This document shows, piece after piece, positions 48,756 to 64,000 of a stretch of 64,000 nucleotides of DNA. The position numbers and the translations under genes were made by a program. The notes beneath the pieces were generated by a model. It did no database searches, was not told where the DNA came from, and was given only the letters and a program-made list of their open reading frames with translations. The first letter of the stretch is position 1. Each line of letters begins with the position of its first letter. The stretch is from Taklimakanibacter albus (lineage in GTDB: Bacteria; Pseudomonadota; Alphaproteobacteria; Rhizobiales; Aestuariivirgaceae), in NCBI RefSeq assembly GCF_016595235.1, contig NZ_JAENHL010000008.1, positions 1,138,624-1,202,623 of the forward strand. The letters are read 5' to 3'.

Positions 48756-51377
48756 TCACGGAACGTCTCCTTCTCCATTCGCCGCGACGACGGAAGCCTT
48801 GCGCCGCCGCGATATCAGCACCGCGACATCGAGCAGAACCAGAGGCAGCGACAATCCACCCGGGCAGGCCAGATAACGCGGCCGCCAGTCCGGGCGGAAT
48901 TTCTCCTTGAAGGCGCGCAGCCCCTCGAAACCATAGATCTGCTCGCCATGCTGGAAGATGAGATTGCCGGCCTTGTGCCAGGCCGGCGCCAAAGGATGGC
49001 CTTCGAGACCTGAAAGCGGCGCCATGCCGAGACTGAAACATTTGAAGCCCTGCGCCTTGCCCCACAGGAGCAGCTGGACGAAGAGGAAATCCATATGGCC
49101 GCGCGGCGCATCGGTGCGATGGCGCATCAGGTCGACGGAAAGCTCGCGCTTGCCGGCGCTCTGCCAGAGATTGGCGAACGCGACGATCTTGCCCGCATGC
49201 CGGATCACCGCGAGATCGAAGCCCGAGAGATAGGCCGGATCGAAATGACCGACCGAGAATTGCTTCTCGACAGCGCCTTTCGCGGCGAGCCATTCATCCG
49301 AAATCTCGCGCAGCTCAGGGATGAGCGCTCCAACGCCACCGGCCGGCACGACGGCGAAGGCAAGCCCCTGACGCTCCGCCTTGTGGCTCGACTGCCGGAG
49401 ATTGGCGCGCGCGCCGCCTTCGAGGGAGAAGGCCTGGAGATCGATGAGCGCCTCCTCGCCGAGCTTGAGGAGGGAAAGCCCGAGATCGAGATATCGCGGC
49501 AGGTTCGCGGCATTCACCTCATAGAAGACCGGCTTGCCGCCACGCCGGTCGACAAGCTCGCGGAAGCGCCAGAGCAAATCGTCGAAGCGCTCTTCGGCGC
49601 CGATCGGATCGCCCATCACGATCCAGCTCATCCCCTGGATATCATACATGAGAAATGCATCGCGCTCGGGCGCGATCAGGAATTGCTTGTCGCCGGTGAG
49701 GGCCAGATTGGCTTCCGTGTTGCCGGCCTGAGCGACGATGCGCACCACATCCGGCGAGATTGCGTAGGAGCGCGTGAGGCGGCCGCGCGCCGGGCGCAGC
49801 AGCAGATAGGCGCCGAGGCCACCGGCGATCAGTACCACCAGCAGGCTGGCCCGTAGAAAGCGCGGCGCATCGGCCGAATAGGCGATCTGCCACCAGAGCT
49901 CATTGGAGTAGCCGACCTGCTTGTAAGAGAGATTACCCACCCAGATCGAAGCGGCGCAGGCCAGCGTTACGGCGACCACGGCCATCGGCGAGGGATCTTC
50001 ATTGAGGAGCGACGACTGGCGATAGAAAGCGCTTCGGCTCAGGAGAACGAGCACCAGCACGACGGCGAGGACGCTCGCCTCTTCCCAATCCAGCCCCTTG
50101 GCGAGCGATACCACGATGCCGCAGCCGAGCAGCAGGACGACCAGCGACCAGGCGGCGTCGAGGCGCCGGTACAGTCCGATCGACAGCAGCAGGAGGAAGA
50201 AGCCGGCGACGCTGCCGATGAGATGCGAGAGCTCGATGAAGGGAAGCGGCACGAGATCGGTAAGGATTTCCATGCGGATCTCGAGCGTCGGTGTCGCGCC
50301 GGAGACCAGCAGGACGAGACCGCCGGTGAAGACCGCGATGGCGATGACCGGCGGCAGCAGCGCATGGAAGATCGGCCGCGCTGCCAGCGTCGCGGCCTTG
50401 ATCCTGAAGAGATGCGGCTGCGCCTCGCGCACCGCCATGAGCGCCGCGGCAATAAGGAACGGCAAGATGTAATAGAGGCAGCGATAGAGGAGGACCGCAG
50501 CCAGAAGACTATGCGGCGGAACCTGTGGCAGCGCCAGCAGCATGCCGGCCTCGAGCACGCCGAGGCTTCCCGGTATATGCGAGATGAAGCCCGCGACGAC
50601 GATGAGCGCGAAGAGGCCGGTGAAGGCGATGAGGCTCATATCCGCTTCCGGCGGCAGCAGCACCCAGAGGGCTGACGCGCTCACCAGCATGTCGATGGCG
50701 CCCAGGAGGATCTGCGCCGCGCTCATGGGCAGGCCCGGCAGACGCAGCGACCAGCCGCCGATGGTCAAGGGCGCCGGCCAGTTCCAGCGATAGATCAGGT
50801 AGGCCGCAACCAATCCCGCGAGCCCTGCCCCCAACAACGACACGACGATGCGCGGCGCCGCCAGCATGCGGGCAAGGAAGTCCGGCTCGGCGATCATCGA
50901 GAGCGCGGCGACCGCCGCGAGCCCCAGCCAGAAGGAAAGGCCGGTAATGACGACGATGCGGCCGATCTCGGCGGCGGAAAGCCCGAGGCTGCCATAGATG
51001 CGGAACCTGACCGCACCACCGGTCAAGGCACCGAAGCCCAGGGTCTGGCTCATGGCGCTTGCGATGAAACCGACATAGGCGGCGTCCGATGACCGCAGCT
51101 TCTTGGAGATGCTGCGCAACGCCAGCACATCATAGGCCATCAGCACGAGATAGCTCATGCAGGTAAAAGCCAGACACAAAGCGAGGGCACGCCAGGAAGC
51201 GGACCAGAAACTGCCGCTGATGTCGGCGAAGGTAACTTCGGCCAGCGTCATGTGCAGGAAAGCCGCGGAGAGCGCGAACAGCACCACGCCCAAGGCGACC
51301 GGCGCCCAGTGCAGAACGCGCCGCGCCGTTTCTCCCGGCAATGAAAGATGGCCCTCTTTCGACAGGTGGCTGTCCAT
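48756..51377 (-). CDS. lpiA: Bifunctional lysylphosphatidylglycerol flippase/synthase
   Basis: 873 residues from the ATG at 51377. The first 530 or so residues contain about 14 membrane helices (flippase part; FGALTGGAVRFRIYGSLGLS is the conserved loop). The remainder is the cytoplasmic DUF2156/GNAT-like synthase (FLIAPERDAFLMYDIQGMSWIVMGDPIG, FYEVNA, and the C-terminal PLSGLEGHPLAPAWHKAGNLIFQHGEQIYGFEGLRAFKEKF part that matches MprF). It transfers lysine from Lys-tRNA to phosphatidylglycerol and flips the lipid, lowering membrane negative charge against acid and cationic peptides. Operon with acvB. Confidence 0.94.
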   Translation of the reverse strand: MDSHLSKEGHLSLPGETARRVLHWAPVALGVVLFALSAAFLHMTLAEVTFADISGSFWSASWRALALCLAFTCMSYLVLMAYDVLALRSISKKLRSSDAAYVGFIASAMSQTLGFGALTGGAVRFRIYGSLGLSAAEIGRIVVITGLSFWLGLAAVAALSMIAEPDFLARMLAAPRIVVSLLGAGLAGLVAAYLIYRWNWPAPLTIGGWSLRLPGLPMSAAQILLGAIDMLVSASALWVLLPPEADMSLIAFTGLFALIVVAGFISHIPGSLGVLEAGMLLALPQVPPHSLLAAVLLYRCLYYILPFLIAAALMAVREAQPHLFRIKAATLAARPIFHALLPPVIAIAVFTGGLVLLVSGATPTLEIRMEILTDLVPLPFIELSHLIGSVAGFFLLLLSIGLYRRLDAAWSLVVLLLGCGIVVSLAKGLDWEEASVLAVVLVLVLLSRSAFYRQSSLLNEDPSPMAVVAVTLACAASIWVGNLSYKQVGYSNELWWQIAYSADAPRFLRASLLVVLIAGGLGAYLLLRPARGRLTRSYAISPDVVRIVAQAGNTEANLALTGDKQFLIAPERDAFLMYDIQGMSWIVMGDPIGAEERFDDLLWRFRELVDRRGGKPVFYEVNAANLPRYLDLGLSLLKLGEEALIDLQAFSLEGGARANLRQSSHKAERQGLAFAVVPAGGVGALIPELREISDEWLAAKGAVEKQFSVGHFDPAYLSGFDLAVIRHAGKIVAFANLWQSAGKRELSVDLMRHRTDAPRGHMDFLFVQLLLWGKAQGFKCFSLGMAPLSGLEGHPLAPAWHKAGNLIFQHGEQIYGFEGLRAFKEKFRPDWRPRYLACPGGLSLPLVLLDVAVLISRRRKASVVAANGEGDVP

Positions 51378-51532
51378 GGCGACCACTATTTGCCGCGCCG
51401 GGCCCCCTGTCAAAGCCGTTCGCGGAAGCCTGTGAGTTTCCACACAGACGGCGGCGGCGCTTCGCCGTTAAATCATCCCATCAATTTCCAAGCCGGCCAT
51501 TCGAGAACCGGGGCAACAAAGGAAAGAGACCC

Positions 51533-51820
51533 ATGAGCACGCATGTCGAGCATCGCGCCATTGCCCGTCCACCCCAGCTTTCTCTGCTCAGCAGATTCAC
51601 CACGTGGCTGGGCGCCGGATTCAAGACCTGGCGGGCGCAGCAAATCGAGCGCGCCAATATCGAAGCGCTGACAGCACTCGGCCCCGAGCTCCTGGATGAC
51701 GTCGGCGTGACCATCCATAAGGCCGGCAAACCACCGAAATCCATCGCCATCTGCAACCCGCATCTGATCGCCATGGATTCGCTGTCCATGTCCAAGCCGA
51801 CCGAACGCGGCGAGTTCTAG
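51533..51820 (+). CDS. DUF1127-like small protein
   Basis: 95 residues from the ATG at 51533, with GGAAAGAG upstream. The middle part WRAQQIERANIEALTALGPELLDDVGV resembles the short DUF1127 (YjiS-like) arginine-rich motif, flanked by a basic start and a longer tail than usual. In alphaproteobacteria these small proteins act in phosphate, stress or RNA-related regulation, but evidence is limited. Divergent from lpiA with about 155 bases between them, and followed by a terminator-like hairpin. Confidence 0.65.
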   Translation: MSTHVEHRAIARPPQLSLLSRFTTWLGAGFKTWRAQQIERANIEALTALGPELLDDVGVTIHKAGKPPKSIAICNPHLIAMDSLSMSKPTERGEF

Positions 51821-51841
51821 GCCATCTCGAACTCGGCCCGT

Positions 51842-51880
51842 GCAGGGCTGTCCGGTAATGCCCTCTCCGGGCAGCCCTGC
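51842..51880. terminator. Bidirectional hairpin between convergent genes
   Basis: A 14-bp stem with one T-G pair (GCAGGGCTGTCCGG at 51842-51855 with CCGGGCAGCCCTGC at 51867-51880), lying between the DUF1127-like gene and the end of the oxidase operon. Only weak T-runs follow on each side. Confidence 0.65.
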
Positions 51881-51893
51881 CTCTATTTCCTGG

Positions 51894-52301
51894 TCACGCC
51901 TCGGTGTTCATGTTGTAGCTGTCATAGAGGACTTTCCAGCCGCCCTTCTCCTTGCGCCAGACCACGACATATTTGGCGATTTCCATGACCGGCTTGCCAT
52001 CGACCTCGTGACCGAACTCGACTTTGCCGAAATCGGATGCGAGCGAGCCGTCGTCGGAGATCACGATGCGCTCGGGCGTGAAGCGGAGATTGAGGCCGGG
52101 AATGGTGTCCATCATCTTCTTCCAGCTGGCGCGGATATGCGCGGTGCCATGCACCGCCGGTTCGCCCGGCCACACCAATGAACCGTCATGGGCGTAGAAG
52201 CCGACCACGGCGTCGAGCTTCTTGGCCGACGCGGCCTTGCCCCATTCCTCATCCAGCCGACGGATCGCCGCTTCATCGGCCTTGTGCTTTTCACCCTGCA
52301 T
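51894..52301 (-). CDS. SnoaL-like / DUF4440 protein, last gene of the oxidase operon
   Basis: 135 residues of NTF2-like fold: N-terminal helix AIRRLDEEWGKAASAKKLDAVVGFYAHDGSLVWPG, central VHGTAHIRASWKKMM, and C-terminal strand ending YVVVWRKEKGGWKVLYDSYNMN. Proteins of this type bind small molecules; some are isomerases or cyclases. Its start overlaps the cyclase gene stop by 11 bases, so it belongs to the operon. Whether it acts on the oxidase product is not known. Confidence 0.8.
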   Translation of the reverse strand: MQGEKHKADEAAIRRLDEEWGKAASAKKLDAVVGFYAHDGSLVWPGEPAVHGTAHIRASWKKMMDTIPGLNLRFTPERIVISDDGSLASDFGKVEFGHEVDGKPVMEIAKYVVVWRKEKGGWKVLYDSYNMNTEA

Positions 52302-55300
52302 ATTTCACTCCTCTGTTGCGCAAATGGGACCGAAGCTCGTCGAGAAAAGCCTTGGCGTCCTTCAGATCGCGGGTCGCGAAGCCTTCGGTGAACCAGCCAT
52401 GGACCGCCGACAGCAAATCGAAGGCCTGGGCATGATCGCCCCTGTCGGCGAGAAGCCGGGCCAACGTCGTCGCTATGCGCAATTCCCATGACCTGGCCCC
52501 TTGCGCACGCGCGACGGCGAGCGCGGCGCGCAGTTGCTCTTCGGCCTCGTCCGGCCTTGCCTGCTCGATCAGCAGCCAGCCTTTAAGGCGCAGCACCTCG
52601 GCCAGATGACAGCGCTCCTCGCCCGCCAAAATCCTGGCGATGCTCACATCGAGCAGCTTTTCGGCGGCCTGGATATCACCGCTGAGCGCCAGCGCCTCGG
52701 CCTGGAGAGCACATAAATAACCGATCCAGATGCGATGGCCGGTGGCGGCGAGGCGGGTGATGGCGCGGTCGAGGCGTATGGCGGCGTCGGCATGACGCCC
52801 GGCTCTGAGCCAGGCGATGCCACGGCTCACTTCCGCCATCACCTCGAAAAAGAGCGAGACGCCGAAGCGGCGGCCGACGCTGTCGGCCTCCTCGGCGCGG
52901 CGCATCAATTCGTCGGGCTCGCACAGGAAATCGAAGGCCTGGGCGCCCAGCGTCAGCGAGAAAGCGAGATCGAAGGGATGATTGCGGCGGCGCGCATGAT
53001 CGTCCCTGTCGTTGCTCGCCGCCACCGCCTGATCCGGATAGCCGATGATCCACAGATATTGGGCGCGGTAGATTCCTTCACCGGTGAGAGGATCTGTGTT
53101 GGTGAGCTGCGCCACATGCCAATGCCGCCCGGCGTCATACATTGCGAGCAGCTTGTCGCCATGTGCCTTGGCCACGTCGAAGCGGCCCTGCCAGAAAGCG
53201 GAGCCTGAAACGGCGCGGTGGCCGACGATGACCAGATTGTCGTCACCGGTCTCGGCGCCGACCTCCAGAAGCTTCTCAGCCCAGCGCAGCGACACGTCGA
53301 GACGGTCGACACACATGTAATGCACCCAGAGCGCATTCAGGATCGGCAGATAACCCTGCCGATGCTGGAGCCGATGCGCCAGCGACCAGGCGGGCTCCAG
53401 CGCCGCGCTCAATTCCGGATGACCCCAGCCGCGCCCGGCGACGAGGGCCGGCCCTAGCGACGCGCGGAAACGCAGTTCCAGGAGATCGCGCTCAGGCCCC
53501 GGCGATGCGGTCTCGAGCAGGTTTATGCCCTTGCGCAAATGGCTGACGGCCTCGGGCACCGCGAAGCGCTGCATCGCCACCTCGCCCGCCTTGAGCCAGA
53601 GCGGCGCCGCGGCCGCCTGATCGTCGGCTGCCGTATAATGATGGGCGAGCAGTTCCGGCTCGCGGATGCGCGTCTCGGGATGACGCTCCTCCAGCACCTG
53701 AGCGATCCGCGCATGCAAGGGCTTGCGCTGGCTGCGCAGCAGCGAGTCATAAGCCACATCGCGGATCAAAGCGTGCTTGAATGTGTAGGAGACGGGCCCC
53801 GGCGCCACGCCTGAGCTCACCGCGAGGCCCGATGCGGTCAGTTCCGCCAGGCCCTCGGCGAGAGCCCGCTCGTCCATGTGATGCAAGGCCTGGATGATCT
53901 CGTGGCTGAAGGTGCGCCCGACGACGGAGCCGATCTGGGCGACGGCCTTGGCCTTGGCGAGGCGGTCGAGACGCGCCGCGAGCGAATCGCGCAAAGTCTC
54001 GGGGATGGCGAAGCCCGGCGTTGTGCCGGCATAGACATAGCGCCCGCCGGCTTCGGCGAGCCCGCCCGATTCGAGGATCGTGCGCGTCAGCTCCTCTACG
54101 AAGAGCGGCACGCCGTCGGTCTTGGCGATGATCTGCTCGACGATCTCCGCCGGCAGCGATTTGCCCTCGGCGATGCGCGAGATCATCTCGCCGCATTGCT
54201 GGCCGGTGAGCTTGGCGAGGTTGAGCAGAGCGACATTGACATGGCTCGACCAGTGCGGCTCGAATTCCGGCCGATAGGTGGCGACGATCAGCAAGGGAAT
54301 GCCGGCGAGCTTGCCGATCAGCCGCTCCAGGGTCTCGAGCGTCGTCGGATCGGCCCAATGCATGTCCTCGAACAGCAGCAGCGTGTGACGCAAACGCGAG
54401 GCGGCCGCCACCATGTCCTCCATCACGCGGACGGTTTCCTGCTTGGCAAGCCTCGGCGATATGTCGAGAGGACCATAGCGCTCCTCGCACGGGATCGACA
54501 TCATGTTGGCGATGAAACGCACATCGGAAAGCGGCAGGCCATAGCGCCCGACGATCAGCGCCTCCAACTTGTCGAGCCGCATATCGGCCGGGCTGTCGTC
54601 GCCGATCTGCAGTACCTCGTCGAGATGCGTCCTTATCGGGTAGAAGGCGCTGTTGAGATGGAAGGGCGAGCATTGGAAGCGCCAGATCTGTGCGTGCTCA
54701 TGCTCGAGGCTGGCGCAGAGCGCATCGGCGATGTGGCTCTTGCCGATGCCCGGCTCGCCGCAGACATTGACGGTGAAGCCCTTGCCCGCATCGTGGACGC
54801 GCCGCCATTTGTCGAGCAGCGTCTCCATCTCGGCACCGCGCCCGATGAGCGGCTTGTCGTTGCCTTGGCGGCTCTCGGCGGCGGCAAGGCCCAGCACATG
54901 GTGGAGATGTACGGGCAGCGTGATGCCCTTGAGGCTGTGCGCGCCCATATCCTCGTAGTCGAAGACATCACCGGCGAGCTTGCGCACCTTGGAACTCACC
55001 ACGATAGCGCCGGGCTCAGCCGCGCTTTGCAGACGCGCCGCGAGATTCATCGTCTCGCTGACGGCGGTGCGGCCATCGGCGGAAACGACGACGATGCCGG
55101 TGGCGATGCCGATGCGGACCTCGAGCTTCGCCCCCTCGGGCGCATTGAAGCGCCCCATGGCGTCGATGATGTCGAGCCCGGCACGGATGGCGCGCTCGGC
55201 CTCGCGCTCATGGGCGAGCGGAAAGCCGAAGAAGGCGACGATGCCGTCGCCCAGGCGCTGGAACAGATAGCCCTCGTAGCGGGCGATGCAGGCGGCGCAG

Positions 55301-55620
55301 GCATCCTCATAGCCGCGCACGATGTCCTTCAGAACCTCGGGATCGACGCGCTGGGCGAGCGCGGTGAAGCCCACCATGTCGCAGAACATCACGGTGAGCT
55401 GGCGCCGCTCCTCAGCCCGCGTGTCCGGCTCGGGCTTCTGCACCTTGGCCGCGGCGAGCGCGTTCAGCAGACGCCTGCGGGCGCCGAAGGACAGGCCGAG
55501 CTCCTTCAGATCGTCGTCGGTGAGAAGCAGCAAAGTGGGGAAGTCGACATCGTTCTCGACGAAGAGCTGGGCATGCTCGGCGAAGCCATGCGCCTCGAGC
55601 CATCGGGTGAGCACGGTCAT
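52291..55620 (-). CDS. SAM-domain / class III adenylate cyclase / AAA ATPase / TPR protein
   Basis: 1109 residues. A SAM-type helical domain (1-58), then a class III nucleotide cyclase domain (about 73-240) with both metal Asp residues (Asp81 in FCDMVGFT and Asp125 in RLGDGIVAFFG, 44 apart as in known cyclases) and the transition-state Asn192/Arg196 pair (MNLAARLQ). The active site therefore looks intact. A signal-transduction AAA/NTPase part follows (Walker A GEPGIGKS at 288-295; Walker B LLLFEDMHWAD), then TPR-like helices to the end. It overlaps its neighbours by ATGA and by 11 bases. Nearby, a divergent Crp/Fnr protein keeps cAMP-contacting residues. Confidence 0.9.
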   Translation of the reverse strand: MTVLTRWLEAHGFAEHAQLFVENDVDFPTLLLLTDDDLKELGLSFGARRRLLNALAAAKVQKPEPDTRAEERRQLTVMFCDMVGFTALAQRVDPEVLKDIVRGYEDACAACIARYEGYLFQRLGDGIVAFFGFPLAHEREAERAIRAGLDIIDAMGRFNAPEGAKLEVRIGIATGIVVVSADGRTAVSETMNLAARLQSAAEPGAIVVSSKVRKLAGDVFDYEDMGAHSLKGITLPVHLHHVLGLAAAESRQGNDKPLIGRGAEMETLLDKWRRVHDAGKGFTVNVCGEPGIGKSHIADALCASLEHEHAQIWRFQCSPFHLNSAFYPIRTHLDEVLQIGDDSPADMRLDKLEALIVGRYGLPLSDVRFIANMMSIPCEERYGPLDISPRLAKQETVRVMEDMVAAASRLRHTLLLFEDMHWADPTTLETLERLIGKLAGIPLLIVATYRPEFEPHWSSHVNVALLNLAKLTGQQCGEMISRIAEGKSLPAEIVEQIIAKTDGVPLFVEELTRTILESGGLAEAGGRYVYAGTTPGFAIPETLRDSLAARLDRLAKAKAVAQIGSVVGRTFSHEIIQALHHMDERALAEGLAELTASGLAVSSGVAPGPVSYTFKHALIRDVAYDSLLRSQRKPLHARIAQVLEERHPETRIREPELLAHHYTAADDQAAAAPLWLKAGEVAMQRFAVPEAVSHLRKGINLLETASPGPERDLLELRFRASLGPALVAGRGWGHPELSAALEPAWSLAHRLQHRQGYLPILNALWVHYMCVDRLDVSLRWAEKLLEVGAETGDDNLVIVGHRAVSGSAFWQGRFDVAKAHGDKLLAMYDAGRHWHVAQLTNTDPLTGEGIYRAQYLWIIGYPDQAVAASNDRDDHARRRNHPFDLAFSLTLGAQAFDFLCEPDELMRRAEEADSVGRRFGVSLFFEVMAEVSRGIAWLRAGRHADAAIRLDRAITRLAATGHRIWIGYLCALQAEALALSGDIQAAEKLLDVSIARILAGEERCHLAEVLRLKGWLLIEQARPDEAEEQLRAALAVARAQGARSWELRIATTLARLLADRGDHAQAFDLLSAVHGWFTEGFATRDLKDAKAFLDELRSHLRNRGVKYAG

Positions 55621-56996
55621 GGCCGGGCCTCGACCAGGACGCCGTTGTTGCGCAGCCAGATGGCGATCGACAAAGCGGATTTGAACGGCATGCGATGCGA
55701 CCAGCCCTGCGCGATCTCGACCAGCGTCGCACTCGAATTGAGCTCGCTCAGGAGCGGGGCCAGCGGCTGATTGCCGAGATAGGCGACGGGCGCCGCCAGC
55801 CCGGGATGGCGCAGCGCCTTTTTGAGCGTCACGAACTCACCGTCGATGCAGGGCAGGTCTTCGATGACGAGATCGCGCGACAGCTCGACGCGATGCGACG
55901 CGACACTTGCCGCATCGGCCGCGACCACCGGCCGGCGGGACGCCTCGTCGGCGGTGGGCCCGGCGCGCCGTCGCCAGAAGACATCCGGCCGCGCGCGTGC
56001 GGCCTCGGCATAGTAGCTCATGGCCCACTTGCGATGACGGGCCGAGGCCTCGCCAAGAGTCGTCGCATAGAAGGCCATGGCCGCGGCGGCCGAGGCCCTG
56101 GACTTCACGAGCGTATTGGCGACGATGGCGCCGGCGAGTGCCGTCTGGATCGCCTTCTGCACACCCGACGACGACAAGGGATCAAGCGCCAGAGCCGTTT
56201 CACCGAGCGCGATGCTGGAGGGCGTCGCCGCATTGAGAGCAACAGAGGGCGTCGCATCGGTCGCCTGGACCGGGCTTTGACATGCGCCGGTCTTGAAGCC
56301 CGAAGGACCGAGAAGCTCCAGATAGCGCGCCTCCAGCGTGGCCTTCGGAAGGGCGCCGAACTCTTTGGCATCGACGAAGACCTGCAGATGGCAGGTACCG
56401 TCGGGAAGCGGCACAGCCCAATACCAGGCCGCATCGCCGGCCCGGATCACCGGATGGGCGGGCAGCGCGGCGCCTTTCCAATAGGCATGAAGGGCCAAGG
56501 TGGCAGGCCCGGTCGTGTCTCTGCGCCAGGCAGCGGCGCCGGCGCGGCCGCGGGCATCGGCGAGGAAATCAACCTGGAGAATTTCCTTTCCCGCTGCCGC
56601 GGCGACGGCGAGACGCCAGCCGTTCTCGGTTTGCTTCCGATCGACAATCCTGGCCGACTGATGAACACGAACCCCAAGCCGGCGCGCCCGATCGAGCAGC
56701 GCGCCGTCGAAATAACCGCGATCGACCAGCAATCCCGCTTCGCGCTCATCATTGCGGATCAGCGCCGGGCCGTCCCAGGCGACCTCGACTTTGCGTACCG
56801 GTAAGGCACCATCGAGCGCGCCGGCGGCGCTGACGCTCTGCAGCAGCACCTGAACCCCGCGACTCAGGGATTCCCCCAGATGCGGGCGCGGGAAGGCGGC
56901 GGCTTCGATGACGTCCACCTGATGGCCGAGCTCGGCCATGCGGATGGCGAAGATGCTCCCCGCCGGACCGCCGCCCATGACGCAAACCCTGGCCAT
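55617..56996 (-). CDS. FAD-dependent monooxygenase, LodB/QhpG-like, with C-terminal extension
   Basis: 459 residues. The FAD-binding Rossmann motif is at the start (VMGGGPAGS, residues 6-14, with VDVIEAA), the halogenase/monooxygenase-type fold continues to about 370, including GETALALDPLSSSGVQKAIQTALAG. LodB (for LodA) and QhpG (for quinohemoprotein amine dehydrogenase) are flavoproteins of this type that hydroxylate the Trp that becomes the quinone. LodB and QhpG are shorter; here about 90 residues (370-459) with alternating helices and a FVTLKKALRHPGL start form a possible winged-helix, peptide-binding module. Sits between the radical-SAM and cyclase genes. Confidence 0.75.
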   Translation of the reverse strand: MARVCVMGGGPAGSIFAIRMAELGHQVDVIEAAAFPRPHLGESLSRGVQVLLQSVSAAGALDGALPVRKVEVAWDGPALIRNDEREAGLLVDRGYFDGALLDRARRLGVRVHQSARIVDRKQTENGWRLAVAAAAGKEILQVDFLADARGRAGAAAWRRDTTGPATLALHAYWKGAALPAHPVIRAGDAAWYWAVPLPDGTCHLQVFVDAKEFGALPKATLEARYLELLGPSGFKTGACQSPVQATDATPSVALNAATPSSIALGETALALDPLSSSGVQKAIQTALAGAIVANTLVKSRASAAAAMAFYATTLGEASARHRKWAMSYYAEAARARPDVFWRRRAGPTADEASRRPVVAADAASVASHRVELSRDLVIEDLPCIDGEFVTLKKALRHPGLAAPVAYLGNQPLAPLLSELNSSATLVEIAQGWSHRMPFKSALSIAIWLRNNGVLVEARP

Positions 56997-57000
56997 GGCT

Positions 57001-58338
57001 CTAGCCCGCCAATGGCTGTTGGGCGGCTTGGCCGAGACGCAGATAGGCTTCCAGACAGTAATGCAGCCAACCCCTGATATAGTCGCAGGCCGGGCGGCCG
57101 CGCTTCGTCACCTCATGATGGCAGCCCCCGCCGCAAAGATAGCGCGCCCAGCATCCGTTGCAGGGCTCCTGGCGGTGCACATGGCGGTCGGCGAGCCACG
57201 CCGCCTGGCGTGCGACGTCCAGCCCTTGCTCGAGCGAGCCCATGGCGCCGTCCGCATCATCGACGAAGCGGTGGCAGGCCGCGAGGTCGCCCGAAGCCGA
57301 GACGCCGAGATAGCCGGCGCCGGCGCCGCAGGGATAAGGCCGATGCGTGCCGCGTCCGATCTCGCGCATCGCATTCAGCATGTTGGCGAAGGGGTAGCGC
57401 TCATGCGCCAACGTGCGGCGCTCGAATTCGCGGCCGCAGCCGATCATCTGCTCGAGCATGAGTGCCAGATCCTCGGCCTGCATCTCGCCTTGGCCCGAGG
57501 GCGAAGCGAGCATCGGCGAGAAGCCGACACTGTGAAAGCCCGCGGCGATGAAGGCGTCGAGCGTCGGGCGCAGATCGAGATTGCGCGGCGTGACGGTGAC
57601 ACGCGCCGAGACCTGCATGCGGCGCTGGCGGGCGAGAAGCGGTTCGATCCGGCGCATGATGCGGTCGAAACTTCCTCGCCCGTCGCGGTATGGCCGCTGG
57701 GCATCATGCGCCGCGCCGACGCCGTCGAGGCTGATCGTCACCGCGAAACCATGCTCCTCGAAGAAGTCCGCATCGGCTTCGCTGACCAGCGTGCCGTTGG
57801 TGGTGATCGAGAAGGTGATCGGCGTCCCCTTGCGGCGCGCGAGATCGGCGGCATGGCGGGTCGTCGCCTGGAGCACCGGCCGGTTGACCAGCGGCTCGCC
57901 ACCGAGAAAGGAGAGATTGAGCTTCGCCCCCGGTGCCGCATGGCCGATGAGCTGCTCGACCGCCTGAAGCGCCGTCTCCTGCGGCATGTTCTTCGGCGCT
58001 CCACCGAAGCCGCCCTGCTCGGCATAACAATAGGTACAGCCGAGATTGCATTTCTGCGCCACCGCGAGAGACAGCGCATGGATCGGTGGCGGCGCCAGCG
58101 GCACGTCGTCGATCAGCGGGGCGCCGTCGAGTCCCGCCAACGCGAGCAGGCTTGCAACCTTGCGGGCATCATGCCCGGTCAAGGCCGCTTCAAATTCGGC
58201 AAAGAGATCGGCATCGATATCGAACAGCCGGCTGCCGTCGGCGACGAAGAGATGCCGCCCGGCTTGCGTCGCGATGAGATGCGCCGCCGGCAGGCGCGGG
58301 CCCGAGGCCTTAATATATTGGCGGGCGAGACTGCTCAC
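57001..58338 (-). CDS. SPASM radical-SAM maturase, QhpD-like
   Basis: 445 residues from the GTG at 58338, which overlaps the oxidase stop (GTGA) and has GAGGA just upstream; a longer ATG start at 58398 is possible. The radical-SAM cluster motif is Cys97-x3-Cys101-x2-Cys104 (KCNLGCTYCY), then GGEP. The SPASM domain holds Cys393-x2-Cys396-x5-Cys402-x3-Cys406 (CNGCWARYLCGGGC) with more Cys after it. The first 80 residues resemble a small recognition domain. QhpD makes thioether cross-links in the tryptophylquinone subunit of an amine dehydrogenase, so this is a strong candidate for modifying the neighbouring LodA-like protein. Confidence 0.88.
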   Translation of the reverse strand: MSSLARQYIKASGPRLPAAHLIATQAGRHLFVADGSRLFDIDADLFAEFEAALTGHDARKVASLLALAGLDGAPLIDDVPLAPPPIHALSLAVAQKCNLGCTYCYAEQGGFGGAPKNMPQETALQAVEQLIGHAAPGAKLNLSFLGGEPLVNRPVLQATTRHAADLARRKGTPITFSITTNGTLVSEADADFFEEHGFAVTISLDGVGAAHDAQRPYRDGRGSFDRIMRRIEPLLARQRRMQVSARVTVTPRNLDLRPTLDAFIAAGFHSVGFSPMLASPSGQGEMQAEDLALMLEQMIGCGREFERRTLAHERYPFANMLNAMREIGRGTHRPYPCGAGAGYLGVSASGDLAACHRFVDDADGAMGSLEQGLDVARQAAWLADRHVHRQEPCNGCWARYLCGGGCHHEVTKRGRPACDYIRGWLHYCLEAYLRLGQAAQQPLAG

Positions 58339-60554
58339 GATGGTTCCTCGCCCGGTGCGTCGCGGCCCTTCACCTGGAAGCGCAGCCATGTTTCCCACTC
58401 AGTGAACAGGTCGTCGTAGAAGACGAGGCGGGAATCGACATAGTCATCGGGCACATACTGGCCGGTGCGCGTCTTCTGCAGCCAGTTGTCGCCTAGACTG
58501 AGGCCCTTGGGACCGGGCTCGACATTCACATAATCGGGCCGCGCCGAGGCCCAGTAATAGCAGGAGCATTCGCGGTAATCATTCTGCCAGGGCGAGCACA
58601 GGCCTTGAGTGAGTTCGCCCGCCTCGGCCAGGGCCGCGGAGATGACCGCCGTGTCGGGCACGAAGAAATGGCGGACCTTGAAGCGATGAGTCTCGTAATT
58701 CCTGTCATCGCCGTCGAGACGCGGCACTTGCGCATCTTCCTCAGCGCGCGAGATGTCACAGTCGACTTCCCGGCCCTGAAAACCGTCGAGGAGGCGCGCC
58801 AGCGCGTTCGACCATTCGAGCGGGGCGAGGCCATAGGGATTCTCATCCGTCGTCAGGATGATGTGGCCGTCGGGATCGGACGCCGCCGGCCCCTTGATGT
58901 AGTTCATAGGCTCGATCGGCGGCTGGCCGTCCGGCAGATTGATGCGCAGCAGTCGATGGCCCTTCAATTGCGCGAAGGCCGGGTCGGCATTGACGATGAG
59001 ATTGTCATATTCGCGCAGCTCCAGGCCTTCAAACATGCGCCGCCAGATGGCGCGGAAATCCACCTCGAGGCCTGGACAGCAATTGGCGACCGACGTCACC
59101 GGGCGCGAGCTCACCGGATTGCCCGCCGCTTCATAATGGAGCTGGGCGGTGAGATTGCGCGGCGTGAGGGCGGGCGTCTTCGGCGCTGCCGCGGTAACGC
59201 CAAGCATGCCCTCGGCCACTTTGCGGATGGTATCGATCTGGCGATAGGTGAGAGCCAGATAGCTGTTGTCGGCGCCGCACATCAAAGCCGGCATCTTGCG
59301 GCGGCCCCGATCGGTGAAATCGGAGACCTCTTCCGGCTTGCGCAGCAACCGCAAGAACCACGGCGCCGCGCCGCCGCGCAATGCGGCGAAAACCTGCTGA
59401 TGCAAGGTGAGAATGGCCAGCGTGTCGGCCCCTTCCGGCGTGATCACCGGACGGATGGCACGCTCGGTATCGGCGGCCTCCTCCTCGGGCATGGAATCGA
59501 GCGACAGCGCCGAGCGGCCTTTGTAGTCATTGCCGTTCAGCACCGCGACATTGAGGAAGCGCACCGTCTCGAAGGCGCGGCGCACGATATCCTCGGCCCG
59601 TGCCTGGGTGACTTCCGGCGGCTCGTCATTCGCCACCGTCGGGCCGTGGATGACCTGCTCGAGATCGTCCGCGAGGCTGCGCACGAAGAGCGAATCCGGC
59701 ACCACGGCGGGCGGCGACGCGCAGACCCGCGCCATGGCGGTGAGTACCTTGCCGCCCGGCAGCGTCAGCCTCACCTCGACGAAGCCGTCGCAGGCATCGT
59801 CGAAATAGCCGCGGCTGATGGCGATGTTGTCATTGAGCCAGGACGGCGCCGGCGGTTCGATGGCGAAGAGCGATGGGGGAATGGTCTCATCCTTGCCATC
59901 GGACTTAAAATGATACCAGTTGCCCTTGCCGCGATCATAGATCGCGCGCTCGGGCGGGATGACGCGATCTTTGCCGTCGGGCGCATGTGTCCCGTAAATG
60001 AGCCCCTTGGCCGGCGTGAAGCGCAGGCGGATCTGTGGATAGCGCTGATTGGGCCTGATGAAGCGCGCACTGCCGAAATCGACAAAAACGTCATCCGAGA
60101 TGAAGTTCCGGCAAAAACCTTTGAGCGGCTGCGGCGCGTGATCGGAGAACCAGCCGGTGTGGGCGGCGACGAGATCGTTCTCGTCGCGGGTGCGCCGGAC
60201 GACCTTACGGTTGGCGACGCTGACGCGCCAGGCGAGTTCAGCGCCTGCCAGCATGTCCAGCGTCACCGGCACCAGCCTGTCGTCGTCGGTCAGTGCGAAG
60301 ACCTCAAGGAACGGCGCCACCGGGCGTATCCGGCCATCCTGCTTGAACTGCATCTCGGCGGGCGTATGGCTGCCGGAGATCTCGCCCGTCACGTCGTCGA
60401 CGGTCAGCGTCTTGACTGGCTTGATGGTGCGGAAGTCCAGGGGCGCCGTCGCGTCCGCCTCGATGGTGTAATTGTCGAGCGGATCGGGCGCCGAACCGAG
60501 CCTGCCGATGGCGAAAGGCGGCAGGATGCGAAGCTCTTTTATCGTTGTCTTCAC
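58335..60554 (-). CDS. LodA/GoxA-like oxidase, putative tryptophylquinone enzyme
   Basis: 739 residues from a GTG overlapping the ferritin-like gene stop. N-terminus ILPPFAIGRLGSAPDPLDNY resembles the IxPPIGIARVGNS start of LodA-like oxidases. Further landmarks are KMPALMCGADNSYLALTYRQ (about 417-436), CCPGLEVDFR (492-501) and PWQNDYRECSCYYWASARPD (655-674). LodA-type proteins carry a cysteine tryptophylquinone (CTQ) made from one Cys and one Trp and oxidise amino acids with release of H2O2 and ammonia. I cannot say which Cys/Trp pair is used here: candidates are Cys599 or Cys663 with Trp656 or Trp720. No signal peptide is visible. The maturation genes around it support the family call. Confidence 0.72.
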   Translation of the reverse strand: MKTTIKELRILPPFAIGRLGSAPDPLDNYTIEADATAPLDFRTIKPVKTLTVDDVTGEISGSHTPAEMQFKQDGRIRPVAPFLEVFALTDDDRLVPVTLDMLAGAELAWRVSVANRKVVRRTRDENDLVAAHTGWFSDHAPQPLKGFCRNFISDDVFVDFGSARFIRPNQRYPQIRLRFTPAKGLIYGTHAPDGKDRVIPPERAIYDRGKGNWYHFKSDGKDETIPPSLFAIEPPAPSWLNDNIAISRGYFDDACDGFVEVRLTLPGGKVLTAMARVCASPPAVVPDSLFVRSLADDLEQVIHGPTVANDEPPEVTQARAEDIVRRAFETVRFLNVAVLNGNDYKGRSALSLDSMPEEEAADTERAIRPVITPEGADTLAILTLHQQVFAALRGGAAPWFLRLLRKPEEVSDFTDRGRRKMPALMCGADNSYLALTYRQIDTIRKVAEGMLGVTAAAPKTPALTPRNLTAQLHYEAAGNPVSSRPVTSVANCCPGLEVDFRAIWRRMFEGLELREYDNLIVNADPAFAQLKGHRLLRINLPDGQPPIEPMNYIKGPAASDPDGHIILTTDENPYGLAPLEWSNALARLLDGFQGREVDCDISRAEEDAQVPRLDGDDRNYETHRFKVRHFFVPDTAVISAALAEAGELTQGLCSPWQNDYRECSCYYWASARPDYVNVEPGPKGLSLGDNWLQKTRTGQYVPDDYVDSRLVFYDDLFTEWETWLRFQVKGRDAPGEEPS

Positions 60555-62002
60555 GTGCGCTTACTCCCCTGGCCGTCGATCACTGCGTCGATCGAGGCGA
60601 TGGCCTTGTGGTCGAGCGCCTTCAAGGCGAGGAGATAGTCGCGCCCCGTGCCGGCCGCCGTCTCCAGCAGAAGCTCCATCACCTCGATCGAACCCTGGAG
60701 AAACTCCCGATGCAGCCGCCAGGCATCGGATTCGCTCTCGGGCAGCATCAGCGAGTAAGGCATCTCGAAGGGCGGGCCGGCGAATTTGGCGCCCGAAGCA
60801 TCGGTGCCGCTCTCATGCAGGTCGAGCCCGACGAGAATGCCGGAGATCGTCTTGATGTTGTACATCTCGCCGAAAACCCGGTGCATGACCATGCCGCGCA
60901 GATTGGGCTCGCCCGCCTTCGCACTGCGCGCCAGACGAAAGGAATGAGTGAGGCAGGTGAGAAGCAGCCGGTAGCGGTAATTGAACAGCGTCGCCCAGTC
61001 GCGCGCATGGTTGTTGTCGATATAGACGGCGTCATCCTTGTTGTACTTCCGGGTTGTCGGATTGTCCGGAATGTCGCGCGTCGGCACCCAGTCCTCGGGA
61101 AATTGCTGGAAGATCTTGAGGAAGCGTTCGAAATGCGAGAGCTCGTCGACGCGCCCCGGTGCCAGGTGAATGGCCTCGCCCTGGCTGCCGATCGCCTTCA
61201 GCGCCGCAAGCGCGTCGGTGCGCGTGGCAGCGCGCATGATGATGACATTCGCCTCGCGCTGGCGATGCGGATCCTCCTTTGACGATCCGCTCGCATCGAG
61301 GAGGCGCGCCTCGGGCCCATAGCTCCTTCCCCAATCGTCCCAGGAAGCCTGGTAGACATAACTCTCTTCATCGAAAGCCTGATCAGGGATCAGCTTCTCG
61401 TTGCCGATGATGCCGATGATGTCGTCATATATGGCGGCAACGGTATGCACCGAGCCTGGCGCGCGCTCCTTGATCAGGCGGTCGATCTCGGCCTTGTCCG
61501 TCGCGACGAAGTGCGCGAAGCGCTGGGAAAGCTCGGGATATTTCTTCAGCATCGCGGTGATGGACGGCGGCATCTCGGCATGGACGTAGCAGGCGAGCGA
61601 CGAGCGGGTGAGCTTCTCGAGCCGGAAGGGGTAAGGATAATAGGGAACGGTCCAGGGATAGTCCTCGCGTCCGAAATGCGCCGGCGCACCCAAGAGACAC
61701 AGGATGTTCTGGACGGTGAGGAGATGGCCCATCTCCTCCTTGGCTATTTTGATCAGGCTCGTCTGCCAGTGCTTGATGAGGGATTGACGCTCAGGGGTGG
61801 CGGCGTCGGGACCGCCCAGCGAATAGGCGGCATAGAGATACTGGACCATGAGACCGTGCTCGATCTCGGCGGCGACATGCAGCAGCATGACGAGATGGTC
61901 GTGCCAAGTCAGGCCCGGATGCTTGCCCGCACGCGATGTCGGCTCGTGTTCCTCGGCCTGCACAGGTTCCAGAACGAGAAACTGCCGCCATCCCTGGGCC
62001 AT
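60551..62002 (-). CDS. Ferritin-like (VioB-type) diiron protein
   Basis: 483 residues, first gene of the operon, with AAGGGG before the ATG. A ferritin-like helical domain carries two Glu-x-x-His pairs (Glu46-His49 in AAEIEHGLMVQYLYA; Glu90-His93 in AKEEMGHLLTVQ), typical diiron ligands. The ferritin-like domain of the VioB/StaD/RebD group has the same architecture. In violacein and rebeccamycin pathways a VioB-type protein couples imines made by an amino acid oxidase; here the partner would be the LodA-like oxidase. The remaining 250 residues are a lesser-known C-terminal part (MHRVFGEMYNIKTISGIL). Cytoplasmic by sequence. Confidence 0.78.
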   Translation of the reverse strand: MAQGWRQFLVLEPVQAEEHEPTSRAGKHPGLTWHDHLVMLLHVAAEIEHGLMVQYLYAAYSLGGPDAATPERQSLIKHWQTSLIKIAKEEMGHLLTVQNILCLLGAPAHFGREDYPWTVPYYPYPFRLEKLTRSSLACYVHAEMPPSITAMLKKYPELSQRFAHFVATDKAEIDRLIKERAPGSVHTVAAIYDDIIGIIGNEKLIPDQAFDEESYVYQASWDDWGRSYGPEARLLDASGSSKEDPHRQREANVIIMRAATRTDALAALKAIGSQGEAIHLAPGRVDELSHFERFLKIFQQFPEDWVPTRDIPDNPTTRKYNKDDAVYIDNNHARDWATLFNYRYRLLLTCLTHSFRLARSAKAGEPNLRGMVMHRVFGEMYNIKTISGILVGLDLHESGTDASGAKFAGPPFEMPYSLMLPESESDAWRLHREFLQGSIEVMELLLETAAGTGRDYLLALKALDHKAIASIDAVIDGQGSKRT

Positions 62003-62080
62003 GCGAACCCCTTGTTTTTTCTCTCCCCCGTCGCCCTCCTAACATTATTGTCAGGCGGCGTCGATTGCGCGAAGCGTCCG

Positions 62081-62109
62081 TTGACCAAATACGGCGGAGC
62101 TTCCATTAT
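62081..62109 (+). promoter_or_regulatory. Possible promoter of the Crp/Fnr regulator gene
   Basis: TTGACC at 62081-62086 and CATTAT at 62104-62109 with a 17-base spacer, 25 bases before the start at 62134. In the 130-base gap I see no clear TGTGA-N6-TCACA box for a cAMP receptor. Confidence 0.35.
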
Positions 62110-62133
62110 TTCGGGAGAGGGGAAAATGCCGAC

Positions 62134-62829
62134 ATGGTAAAGCACTCGAAGGATGCATTGCGGACGATCGCCTATTTCAAGTCGCTCGGCGATGCCGCTT
62201 TCGCCGAGCTGGCGCAGCAATGCGCGCTCCGCGAATATACCGCGCAAGAGCTGATTATCGGCCATAATGACGAGACTTTCGACGTCCTCTTCCTGCTGGA
62301 GGGCCAGGCGCGGGTCAGCATCTATTCGGCGGACGGGCAGCGTGTCGGCTTCCGCGACATCGCCGCCGGGACGATCTTCGGTGAGCTCTCGGCGATCGAC
62401 GGCCATCCGCGCTCGGCCAGTGTCGAAGCCATGGAAACCTGCGTCGCCGCGGTGATGCGGCGGCCGCAATTCCTCGCCGCGGTCGCCAATCACCCGGAAT
62501 TTACCATGGCGGTGGCGAAGCATCTGACCGGCCAGGTGCGCGTCCTCACCCAACGCGTCTTCGAGTTCAGCACCATGGCGGTGCGGCAGCGGCTGTGGTC
62601 GGAATTGCTGCGGATGGCGGAGGCTGCCGCCAAGGGCAAGGGCCAGGCGCGTCTCTCGCCCGCCCCCACCCATGCCGAGTTCGCCAGCCGCATCAGCACG
62701 CATCGCGAAGCGGTGACGCGTGAGTTCGCCTGGCTCGAAGCGCAAGGCTTCATCGAAAAGGAAGGCCGGGCCCTGAAGGTGCCCGATCTCGAGAAATTAC
62801 GCGGGCTGGTCGGGACTTTGGAAGTCTAG
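62134..62829 (+). CDS. Crp/Fnr family regulator with conserved cAMP contacts
   Basis: 231 residues from the ATG at 62134; a GGAGAGGGG about 12-20 bases upstream serves as ribosome site, and an extended frame reaching to 61936 runs through the oxidase operon and is rejected. The cyclic-nucleotide domain carries the phosphate-binding cassette with FGEL (Glu84) and PRSASV (Arg93, Ser94), the residues that hold cAMP in E. coli CRP. The C-terminal winged helix (FASRISTHREAVTREFAWLEAQGFI, about 183-207) binds DNA. No FNR-type cysteines. Divergent from the oxidase operon, whose fifth gene contains a cyclase. Confidence 0.9.
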   Translation: MVKHSKDALRTIAYFKSLGDAAFAELAQQCALREYTAQELIIGHNDETFDVLFLLEGQARVSIYSADGQRVGFRDIAAGTIFGELSAIDGHPRSASVEAMETCVAAVMRRPQFLAAVANHPEFTMAVAKHLTGQVRVLTQRVFEFSTMAVRQRLWSELLRMAEAAAKGKGQARLSPAPTHAEFASRISTHREAVTREFAWLEAQGFIEKEGRALKVPDLEKLRGLVGTLEV

Positions 62830-62835
62830 TTGGCG

Positions 62836-62875
62836 CGTCGGACGGGGCCCACTTTTCCTGATCACGCGCTAGCGC
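62836..62875. repeat. Intergenic repeat overlapping the end of the methyltransferase gene
   Basis: GTCGGACGGGGCCCACTTTT and CCTGATCACGCGCTAGCGC match the core of the repeats at 6942 and 63923. The last seven bases lie within the 3' end of the convergent methyltransferase gene, so the gene seems to end in the repeat. Confidence 0.65.
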
Positions 62876-63678
62876 ACCGGCCAGGCGGCGCCTTCACGCA
62901 ACACCGCCTCGGCGACAGAGCTGAACTTTCCGTCATCGCCATGCAGCACGAGACCCGGCAGCAGCTGGACCGGGGCGCGCGAGCCTTTGACGCCCTGGAC
63001 GATGATGCGGGTCGCGGCGAGGCCATGGCGCGGGAATAAGGGGGCGATGACGATATCTCCGAAACGGCCCTCGAAGAGGCTGAGCACCTTGCTCAAGGCC
63101 TCGGCCCGGTAGATCAAAGTGGCCGTGCCCTTGCTCTCGAGCATCGCATGCATGGCCTTGATCCAGAGGTCGAGATCCTCAGGCGAAAAATTATGGGCGC
63201 CGGCCTTCAGCGCCACCGGCGACGGGGTCGATCTGCCGTCCTCGAAATAAGGCGGGTTGGCGAAGGCATGGGCGAAGGAACCGGCGGCCGGCATATGGGC
63301 GACGTCCCGGCGCAGCGCGTCCTTGATATCGGCATGGATGACCTTGACGCCGGCCCCACACTCATTGCGGCGGGCATTTTCCTCGGCCAGCATCGCATAG
63401 CGGGCGGCCACCTCGACGCCGGTAATCTGGACGCCGGGCACCCGGTGGGCAAGGCAGAGAGCGGCGACCCCCGTCCCCATGCCGGCCTCGAAGACCTTGT
63501 CGCCCGGGGCGCAGGGCACGCTCGCCGCCAGGAAAACGGCGTCGATGCCTGCCCGGTAGCCCTTTTCCGGCTGCAGAATGCGCAGGCGGCCATTGAGAAA
63601 GCCGTCCTCGGTCAAGGTCGGGGGAATGGCCCCGCTTGAGGCGGGGGACGAGGCATGGGCGGGCGAGGGTTCCTGCAT
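62869..63678 (-). CDS. TrmN6-like methyltransferase
   Basis: 269 residues. SAM-binding motif I VFEAGMGTGVAALCLAHR (about 62-79), ITGVEVAARYAMLAEENARRN, and the catalytic NPPYF (about 141-145) of N6-adenine methyltransferases. The N-terminal FLNGRLRILQPEKGYRAGIDAVFLAA fits the tRNA1(Val) A37 methyltransferase group. The first 20 residues are low-complexity. A tRNA substrate is likely, but the exact base is unproven. Confidence 0.82.
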   Translation of the reverse strand: MQEPSPAHASSPASSGAIPPTLTEDGFLNGRLRILQPEKGYRAGIDAVFLAASVPCAPGDKVFEAGMGTGVAALCLAHRVPGVQITGVEVAARYAMLAEENARRNECGAGVKVIHADIKDALRRDVAHMPAAGSFAHAFANPPYFEDGRSTPSPVALKAGAHNFSPEDLDLWIKAMHAMLESKGTATLIYRAEALSKVLSLFEGRFGDIVIAPLFPRHGLAATRIIVQGVKGSRAPVQLLPGLVLHGDDGKFSSVAEAVLREGAAWPVR

Positions 63679-63689
63679 GGCGCGCCAAC

Positions 63690-63905
63690 CTACAGCTGCG
63701 GGGTTATCGCAACGTTACCCAATTCGCGCAAAGCTTTGATAATGTCGTCATCCCCGACCATCAGGCGGCGCGGGAAGGCCCCGATCGAGCCCTCGACGGC
63801 GCTCATATGGGCATCGAAGACCGTGGCCTCGATCCCGGCTTCCGCCAGAATATGAGTGGCATAGGACAGGAGCACGAGATCGTTGGTCCTGAGCACTTCC
63901 TTCAT
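63690..63905 (-). CDS. DUF2007 domain protein
   Basis: 71 residues, beginning MKEVLRTNDLVLLSYATHILAEAGIEATVFDAHMS and ending with a helix; this is a small ferredoxin-like DUF2007 domain of normal length. Function unknown, described as a putative signal transducer. It precedes the methyltransferase gene by 11 bases on the same strand, so the two are probably cotranscribed. Confidence 0.85.
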   Translation of the reverse strand: MKEVLRTNDLVLLSYATHILAEAGIEATVFDAHMSAVEGSIGAFPRRLMVGDDDIIKALRELGNVAITPQL

Positions 63906-63922
63906 CGTCCCATTCCTCTATT

Positions 63923-63976
63923 CTAGCGCGTGGTCAGGAAAAGTGGGCACCGGTTTTCCGTCCGACCACACGCTAA
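63923..63976. repeat. Intergenic repeat, inverted relative to the other copies
   Basis: CTAGCGCGTGGTCAGGAAAA, GTGGGCACCGGTTTTCCGTC and CGACCACACGCTA are the reverse complement of the repeat type at 6942 (about 50 bases, most of them identical). It is in the gap upstream of the DUF2007 gene; the last 24 bases of the window show nothing else. Confidence 0.75.
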
Positions 63977-64000
63977 ACTTAAGATTTCGATCACGTTTAT

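Follow-up and report, generated by a model that had tools for sequence, protein, structure and literature searches.

Tryptophylquinone cofactors are described as being built by distinct routes, a flavoprotein of the LodB/GoxB type serving LodA and GoxA, and the radical S-adenosylmethionine (radical-SAM) enzyme QhpD together with the flavoprotein QhpG serving quinohemoprotein amine dehydrogenase (QHNDH). We analysed a 64,000-nt stretch of the Taklimakanibacter albus genome (contig NZ_JAENHL010000008.1; the whole stretch is called the window, and its host genome measures 7.17 Mb) that contains a cassette in which a gene for a LodA-like oxidase stands beside genes for a ferritin-like protein, a QhpD-like SPASM radical-SAM enzyme and a flavoprotein. 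As judged from its sequences, this cassette applies the maturation logic of QHNDH to a LodA scaffold. In the available part of the paper on QhpG, maturation of LodA and of QHNDH is presented as two separate strategies, markedly divergent ones that arrive at the cofactor by convergence (PMC7876137). For QhpC, the gamma subunit of QHNDH, the accessible part of a review (PMC8172795) gives the links Cys37-Trp43, which is the cysteine tryptophylquinone (CTQ), Cys27-Asp33, Cys41-Asp49 and Cys7-Glu16.

The cassette block (51894-62002) lies on the minus strand and is transcribed in the order ferritin-like protein, LodA-like oxidase, SPASM radical-SAM enzyme, flavin adenine dinucleotide (FAD) monooxygenase, cyclase/SAM/AAA/TPR protein and SnoaL-like protein, all of them encoded by intact open reading frames (ORFs). 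Read from 51894 upward, neighbouring genes overlap by 11 and 4 nt, are separated by 4 nt between the flavoprotein and radical-SAM genes, and overlap again by 64 and 4 nt. The original prediction, made from this DNA alone, had spoken of six overlapping minus-strand genes; the six ORFs are intact and four of the five junctions overlap, the 4-nt gap being the part that does not fit. The features concerned are these:

60551-62002, minus strand: VioB-type ferritin-like protein of 483 aa (PF12902), with whose gene the cassette begins (ORF, Pfam, alignment).
58335-60554, minus strand: LodA-like oxidase of 739 aa that starts at GTG; by prediction a CTQ enzyme on which both maturases act (profiles, fold, residues).
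58533-58598, minus strand: CTQ/cross-link loop within the LodA-like gene (motif reading), with codons C653 58596-58598, D659 58578-58580, E662 58569-58571, C663 58566-58568, C665 58560-58562, W668 58551-58553 and D674 58533-58535.
59064-59081, minus strand: C492-x4-E497 in the PGLE loop of the LodA-like protein, a possible third thioether site (alignment).
57001-58398, minus strand: SPASM radical-SAM enzyme, QhpD-like, 465 aa, with CX3CX2C and SPASM-region cysteines (profiles, alignment).
55617-56996, minus strand: FAD monooxygenase of the QhpG family, 459 aa (profiles, tree).

When the genome_contigs collection (84,980 species) was scanned with the oxidase, 130 relatives were confirmed, and the best 80 were kept as loci. 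All four genes (ferritin-like, oxidase, radical-SAM, flavoprotein) are present at 68/80 loci, and at 66 of these 68 they stand in that order; the exceptions are L002, in which the flavoprotein comes first, and L060, in which very long frames blur the order. Ten of the 12 loci without the full set are cut by contig ends. The remaining two are L019 and L067, the latter with its radical-SAM gene ∼7 kb upstream of the oxidase and with no flavoprotein seen within the locus. At loci not cut by a contig end, the radical-SAM gene is found in 69 of 70. The association of the four genes is more than chance, and the core of the original prediction, that a flavoprotein and a QhpD-like radical-SAM enzyme accompany a LodA-like protein, describes a conserved arrangement. 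Beyond the four genes, no neighbour cluster reaches more than 15/80 loci, in a strict clustering of ORFs of at least 100 aa that can split families. Mirror-tree correlations of 0.77-0.93 (52 loci) carry no correction for species relatedness and are not used as support.

According to record titles, the loci span Pseudomonadota, Acidobacteriota, Verrucomicrobiota, Planctomycetota, Myxococcota, Gemmatimonadota, Bacteroidota and Actinomycetota. The distribution of the cassette is patchy: among 40 genomes around the window's own, clear relatives occur in three others (G747, G749 and the deep relative G753), and G748 gave a weak partial match with no cassette adjoining. The nearest named relative is 'Rhizobiales bacterium Y(2018)' (L001, 99%). 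In a short metagenome contig (L022, 7-2446) the oxidase frame lies in five ORFs, either by assembly error or by decay. No published report of a LodA-like protein with a radical-SAM partner was found in the literature searched, which left most subscription journals outside.

Both putative maturases resemble those of QHNDH. The top NCBIfam model for the radical-SAM enzyme is TIGR03906 (QhpD), at 303 bits, and so far as the assignment was tested it did not lead to a family with a different known substrate peptide. Ten cysteines (C117, C121, C124, C357, C375, C413, C416, C422, C426 and C438) are invariant in 26/26 aligned radical-SAM proteins, a set that includes one true QhpD (L101), and are thus common to the cassette and QHNDH enzymes. 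The second model is that of the PapB/freyrasin ranthipeptide maturases (NF047865, 253 bits), whose Cys-Asp thioether chemistry (accessible part of PMC8172795) is also the one predicted for the cassette enzyme; the latter differs in staying under the cut-off of 340, and the PapB substrate is a small peptide.

The flavoprotein scored 289.7 bits with NF049967 (QhpG), above the cut-off of 240, and only 95 and 80 bits with the GoxB and LodB models, whose cut-offs are 400. Its closest solved relative is QhpG (7ctq). All 25 cassette flavoproteins scanned match the QhpG model at E<=1e-20, and that of the deep relative L145 reaches 269.6 bits. An unrooted tree groups nine LodB-like proteins of ordinary lodA loci in one branch (99/100; a tenth row, B_L108, was the wrong ORF and is not counted) and three QhpG proteins in a second (100/100); the position of QhpG, among the cassette flavoproteins, is weakly supported, and LodB is separate from QhpG and cassette proteins alike. 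A LodB-type identity was rejected on the curated cut-offs and the tree branch, and by these sequence comparisons the flavoprotein is QhpG-type, not LodB-type. The idea that the cluster combines LodB and QhpG maturation logics consequently fails, since both helpers are of the QHNDH kind.

The oxidase is a more distant member of its family. The LodA-like protein stays below the Pfam cut-offs for both LodA_N (24.9 bits, cut-off 26.3) and LodA_C (16.7 bits, cut-off 25), and among seven relatives or halves scanned, L080 alone passes one of them (LodA_C, 26.7 bits). A sequence search of the PDB barely detected GoxA (E 0.33). Alignment of cassette C-terminal halves with ordinary LodA C-terminal halves by hhalign gave a probability of 86 and an E of 5e-6 around the CTQ loop. 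An AlphaFold model built from 41 sequences has a mean predicted local distance difference test score (pLDDT) of 82.9 and a predicted template modelling score (pTM) of 0.89, and all 50 of its Foldseek matches at E<=0.001 are GoxA or LodA chains, at 11-14% identity over ∼600-700 columns. Taken by sequence and model, the cassette oxidase is a remote relative of LodA/GoxA, and the family placement of the original prediction stands. With LodA/GoxA (PF17990/PF18417) it shares the fold, the CTQ-loop profile match, the C255 motif, the CTQ cysteine (C663), the catalytic aspartate (D659) and the CTQ tryptophan (W668). It differs in its scores under the Pfam cut-offs, in two extra invariant cysteines, in an invariant D674, in the QhpG-type instead of LodB-type flavoprotein, in the presence of a radical-SAM gene and in being split at 16/80 loci.

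Conservation singles out the loop around the presumed cofactor. In 57 aligned full-length oxidases, C255, C653, D659, E662, C663, C665, W668 and D674 are invariant (57/57), and C492 is present in 53/57. C255 sits in a motif common to GoxA; C663 and D659 fall, in the alignment, on the GoxA motif holding Asp678, a residue named in the available part of PMC7876137. W668 aligns with the invariant tryptophan of the WPA motif of ordinary LodA, which from sequence is taken to be the CTQ tryptophan. The cassette motif reads L-C653-x-P-x3-D659-x3-C663-x-C665-x2-W668-x5-D674, and C653, D659, C663, C665, W668 and D674 are kept in 81/81 motifs read, including that of the deep relative L145. Of the 81, 78 come from the fetched loci, all of those that extend as far as the motif (L017 and L018 stop short of it), and the other three from L145, L147 and L148; L148, equal in length to L001, looks like that contig over again. 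Among the tallied residues, the sole deviation is an Asp in place of E662 in L145.

As a control, ordinary LodA genes were collected through PF18417, which detected them in 12/385 genomes of the class and 11/398 of the phylum. This gave 25 distinct genes (27 matches, one shared by both scans and two in one gene), of which 23 were read and two (L096 and L132) dropped for not fitting the reading pattern. Ordinary LodA has a cysteine at position 653 in 0/23 (A, G or S stands there) and at 665 in 0/23, and an aspartate at 674 in 3/23. Three loci (L030, L061 and L079) hold both a cassette and an ordinary LodA, and these ordinary copies are without both extra cysteines. No related radical-SAM gene was found around ordinary LodA in 15 regions, also when the search was repeated with a profile (six regions touch a contig end and have shorter flanks); ten further regions gave a single one, HxsB of a His-Xaa-Ser system in L151. 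Since the extra cysteines occur only in cassette LodA, also where both kinds share a locus, they track the radical-SAM gene and not the LodA fold.

The ordinary genes near cassettes (L030 13199-15136, L061 14494-17580, L079 1297-3402) mean that these loci carry two kinds of CTQ oxidase; the one in L030 has a LodB-like gene immediately behind it. The HxsB gene of L151 (2271-4043) lies ∼3.5 kb from the ordinary lodA.

We then compared the cassette motif with QhpC. The pattern common to five true QhpC proteins is L-C-x-P-x3-D-x3-C-x3-C-W-W-P-A-Q-x2-D. The C653-D659-C663 spacing equals that of Cys27-Asp33-Cys37 exactly (C-X5-D-X3-C), and W668-X5-D674 equals Trp43-X5-Asp49; for the C492-E497 pair the spacing is x4 versus x8 in Cys7-Glu16 of QhpC. 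When cassette C-terminal halves were aligned with QhpC by hhalign, the same alignment was found unaided, weakly (E 0.069). With canonical LodA against QhpC, 0/200 column shuffles reached the score, and the pooled motif region gave a probability of 77, again with 0/200. These sequence correspondences let us propose with confidence a functional parallel between the cassette motif and QhpC, and a common descent of QhpC and the CTQ segment of LodA is possible. That the pooled LodA motif beats 200 shuffles against QhpC is in itself a hint of a shared origin of QHNDH gamma and LodA.

The window's genome, the one genome searched for QHNDH itself, gave no match to the gamma (QhpC, PF08992), alpha (TIGR03908) or beta (TIGR03907) subunit, which argues against the QhpD-like and QhpG-like enzymes being surplus copies that serve QHNDH. 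The cassette thus shares with QHNDH a QhpD-like enzyme, a QhpG-family flavoprotein and the Cys/Asp spacing around the CTQ pair, and differs in that the window's genome lacks the gamma, alpha and beta subunits, in a target that would be a large oxidase, and in that no QhpC-like leader peptide is apparent. A hidden gene for a QhpC-like peptide was considered as a source of substrate and rejected, since PF08992 matched nothing in the window's genome and lodA overlaps rsam in the window; very small genes (ORFs of <100 aa), which are relevant to this idea, fall outside the neighbour clustering.

Within the cassette, the oxidase is the likeliest substrate, because neither the 75 ferritin-like sequences nor the 69 flavoprotein sequences hold a cysteine conserved at >=95%; leaving out those of the radical-SAM enzyme itself, invariant cysteines are found only in the oxidase. 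At 16 loci the oxidase is encoded by two genes. The second start codon lies between 7 nt inside and 100 nt past the stop of the first gene, mostly with an overlap of a few bases, and the second gene starts ∼5-15 residues ahead of an 'NLxAQ' motif; the split falls in a low-confidence linker near residue 455. The CTQ half then forms a separate protein, comparable in this to the gamma subunit of QHNDH. In the deep relative L145 (8331-10172), from a genome of the window organism's family, the CTQ half and a PF12902 ferritin-like domain are joined in one protein, which supports contact between the oxidase and its ferritin-like partner. In the oxidase model, the longest stretch with pLDDT <50 is the motif itself (654-677), and 492-495 is also <50; this weakly suggests loops that in the mature protein would be held by covalent links.

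From these sequence data we consider it probable that the cassette encodes a LodA-fold, CTQ-dependent amine or amino-acid oxidase matured in the QHNDH style, with a predicted CTQ and two predicted Cys-Asp thioethers. Gene order, protein families, residue conservation and the correlation with the radical-SAM gene can be read from the sequences; for the chemistry we infer the following steps. The QhpD-like enzyme would form C653-D659 and C665-D674 thioethers in the C-terminal loop of the oxidase and possibly, in most members, a third one between C492 and E497. The QhpG-type flavoprotein would then dihydroxylate W668, C663 would add to the hydroxylated indole, and oxidation would yield CTQ. The mature oxidase would deaminate an amine or amino acid and pass the electrons to O2, as in LodA/GoxA; O2 is the proposed acceptor because LodA/GoxA use it and no heme partner occurs in the clusters seen. 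A dehydrogenase with a heme partner was rejected, as no CXXCH was flagged in the 22 largest neighbour clusters (ORFs of at least 100 aa). The original prediction had suggested a quinone cofactor or cross-link not yet described. Extra cross-links are indeed the best reading, but novelty is not needed, as the residues fit CTQ plus the Cys-Asp thioethers known from QhpC; in the literature searched, no description of this chemistry in a LodA-type protein turned up.

Several observations weigh against this QHNDH-style reading. The radical-SAM enzyme lies below the QhpD cut-off of TIGR03906 (303 versus 453 bits). The Foldseek template modelling scores of the oxidase model to GoxA are only ∼0.3, and pLDDT is <50 also at 226-229, 241-243 and 736-739, stretches without such cysteines. 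In the motif, the distances from C665 forward to W668 (3 residues) and back to C663 (2) differ from those of Cys41 to Trp43 (2) and to Cys37 (4), which makes an indel necessary for this match, and column shuffles reach the cassette-versus-QhpC score in 17/200, which is not significant. C492 is lacking in 4/57 oxidases, so the third link would not be universal. Finally, L019 has an intact motif without a radical-SAM relative across its (possibly incomplete) assembly and stands as an exception.

The best surviving alternative, which we judge unlikely, is that the radical-SAM enzyme makes another link in the loop (C665 or C653 to E662, Cys-Trp or a cyclophane), so that the quinone cofactor itself would be new. 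E662 stands between the cysteines in all 57 full-length oxidases, and lower-scoring SPASM models carry the names of several bond types; against this, E662 gives way to Asp in L145, D659 and D674 match the QhpC acceptors by spacing, and Cys-Asp/Glu thioethers are the bonds that the accessible part of PMC8172795 connects with QhpD as well as PapB, the two best-scoring models. Less likely still, C653 and C665 might bind a metal or form a disulfide, with the radical-SAM enzyme modifying something outside the cassette. Such a role would suit a C-x-C with a further cysteine nearby and a ferritin-like protein as near-constant neighbour, but the extra cysteines occur with a QhpD-type enzyme of the same operon, D674 becomes invariant along with them (3/23 in ordinary LodA), no cysteine is conserved in the ferritin-like or flavoprotein sets, and none of the other neighbour clusters goes beyond 15/80 loci. 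That this is an ordinary LodA/LodB system with an incidental radical-SAM gene is very improbable: although the 25 flavoproteins scanned also match the LodB and GoxB models at E<=1e-20, the radical-SAM gene is present at 69 of 70 uncut loci, and the window's flavoprotein passes the QhpG cut-off and stays under those of LodB and GoxB, with LodB-like proteins branching apart.

The ferritin-like protein matches PF12902 at 4.5e-26, which bears out its earlier description as VioB-type. It shares with VioB/PF12902 a ferritin-like domain with conserved glutamates and ExxH of the diiron type (E48, E89, E90, H93, E143, E276, H290 and E379 are conserved in the set) and differs in lying far under the VioB model cut-off (46.6 versus 1250). 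VioB acts after the amino-acid oxidase VioA. By this analogy, our guess is that the diiron partner of the cassette might handle the imine product or H2O2, the most weakly inferred of the proposed steps. PF12902 genes are also reported near fungal lodA genes, with radical SAM unmentioned in the available part of that source (PMC4417212). The structure model of this protein is itself ferritin-like, and its sole Foldseek match at E<=0.001 is 3hl1_A. This is CC_0557 of Caulobacter vibrioides, the one of 14 control genomes with a LodA_C match, and the two genes may adjoin.

The remaining genes at the locus are less constant:

52291-55620, minus strand: nucleotidyl cyclase/SAM/AAA/TPR protein, accessory, probably regulatory (profiles, locus counts).
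51894-52301, minus strand: SnoaL-like/DUF4440 protein, accessory (profiles, locus counts).
61936-62829, plus strand: divergent Crp/Fnr regulator (profiles, locus counts).

Relatives of the cyclase/SAM/AAA/TPR protein occur at 17/80 loci in a phmmer search (one match weak, another on the opposite strand), those of the SnoaL-like/DUF4440 protein at 6/80 (one weak and on the opposite strand) and those of the Crp/Fnr regulator at 4/80 (three weak). The first of these proteins partially resembles the TOMM kinase/cyclase model and is a possible regulator of the cassette. The range first proposed for the cluster, 51894-62829, holds the operon and also takes in the plus-strand Crp/Fnr gene, whose listed ATG overlaps the opposite-strand ferritin-like gene by 67 bases; its real start probably lies further in. 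A phosphatidylglycerol lysyltransferase-type gene lies near the operon (48756-51443; LPG_synthase_C, 4e-99), and an Rfam scan of 51000-64000 gave no match.

By putting the QHNDH route on a LodA scaffold and predicting the exact residues to be linked, the cassette would make the relation between the two routes directly testable. The radical-SAM enzyme would staple a large enzyme and not a small peptide, and the loci would represent an uncharacterised oxidase family whose members nearly always have a ferritin-like partner. The wider picture is more tentative, with doubt slightly outweighing belief: a branch of CTQ oxidases extending over about eight phyla, in which QHNDH-style Cys-Asp staples are set into a LodA-fold enzyme of ∼80 kDa by helpers acting without a cleaved leader, LodA and QhpC being relatives with a common CTQ segment. 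If so, the QHNDH gamma subunit and the CTQ subunit of split LodA would be two ends of one evolutionary series.

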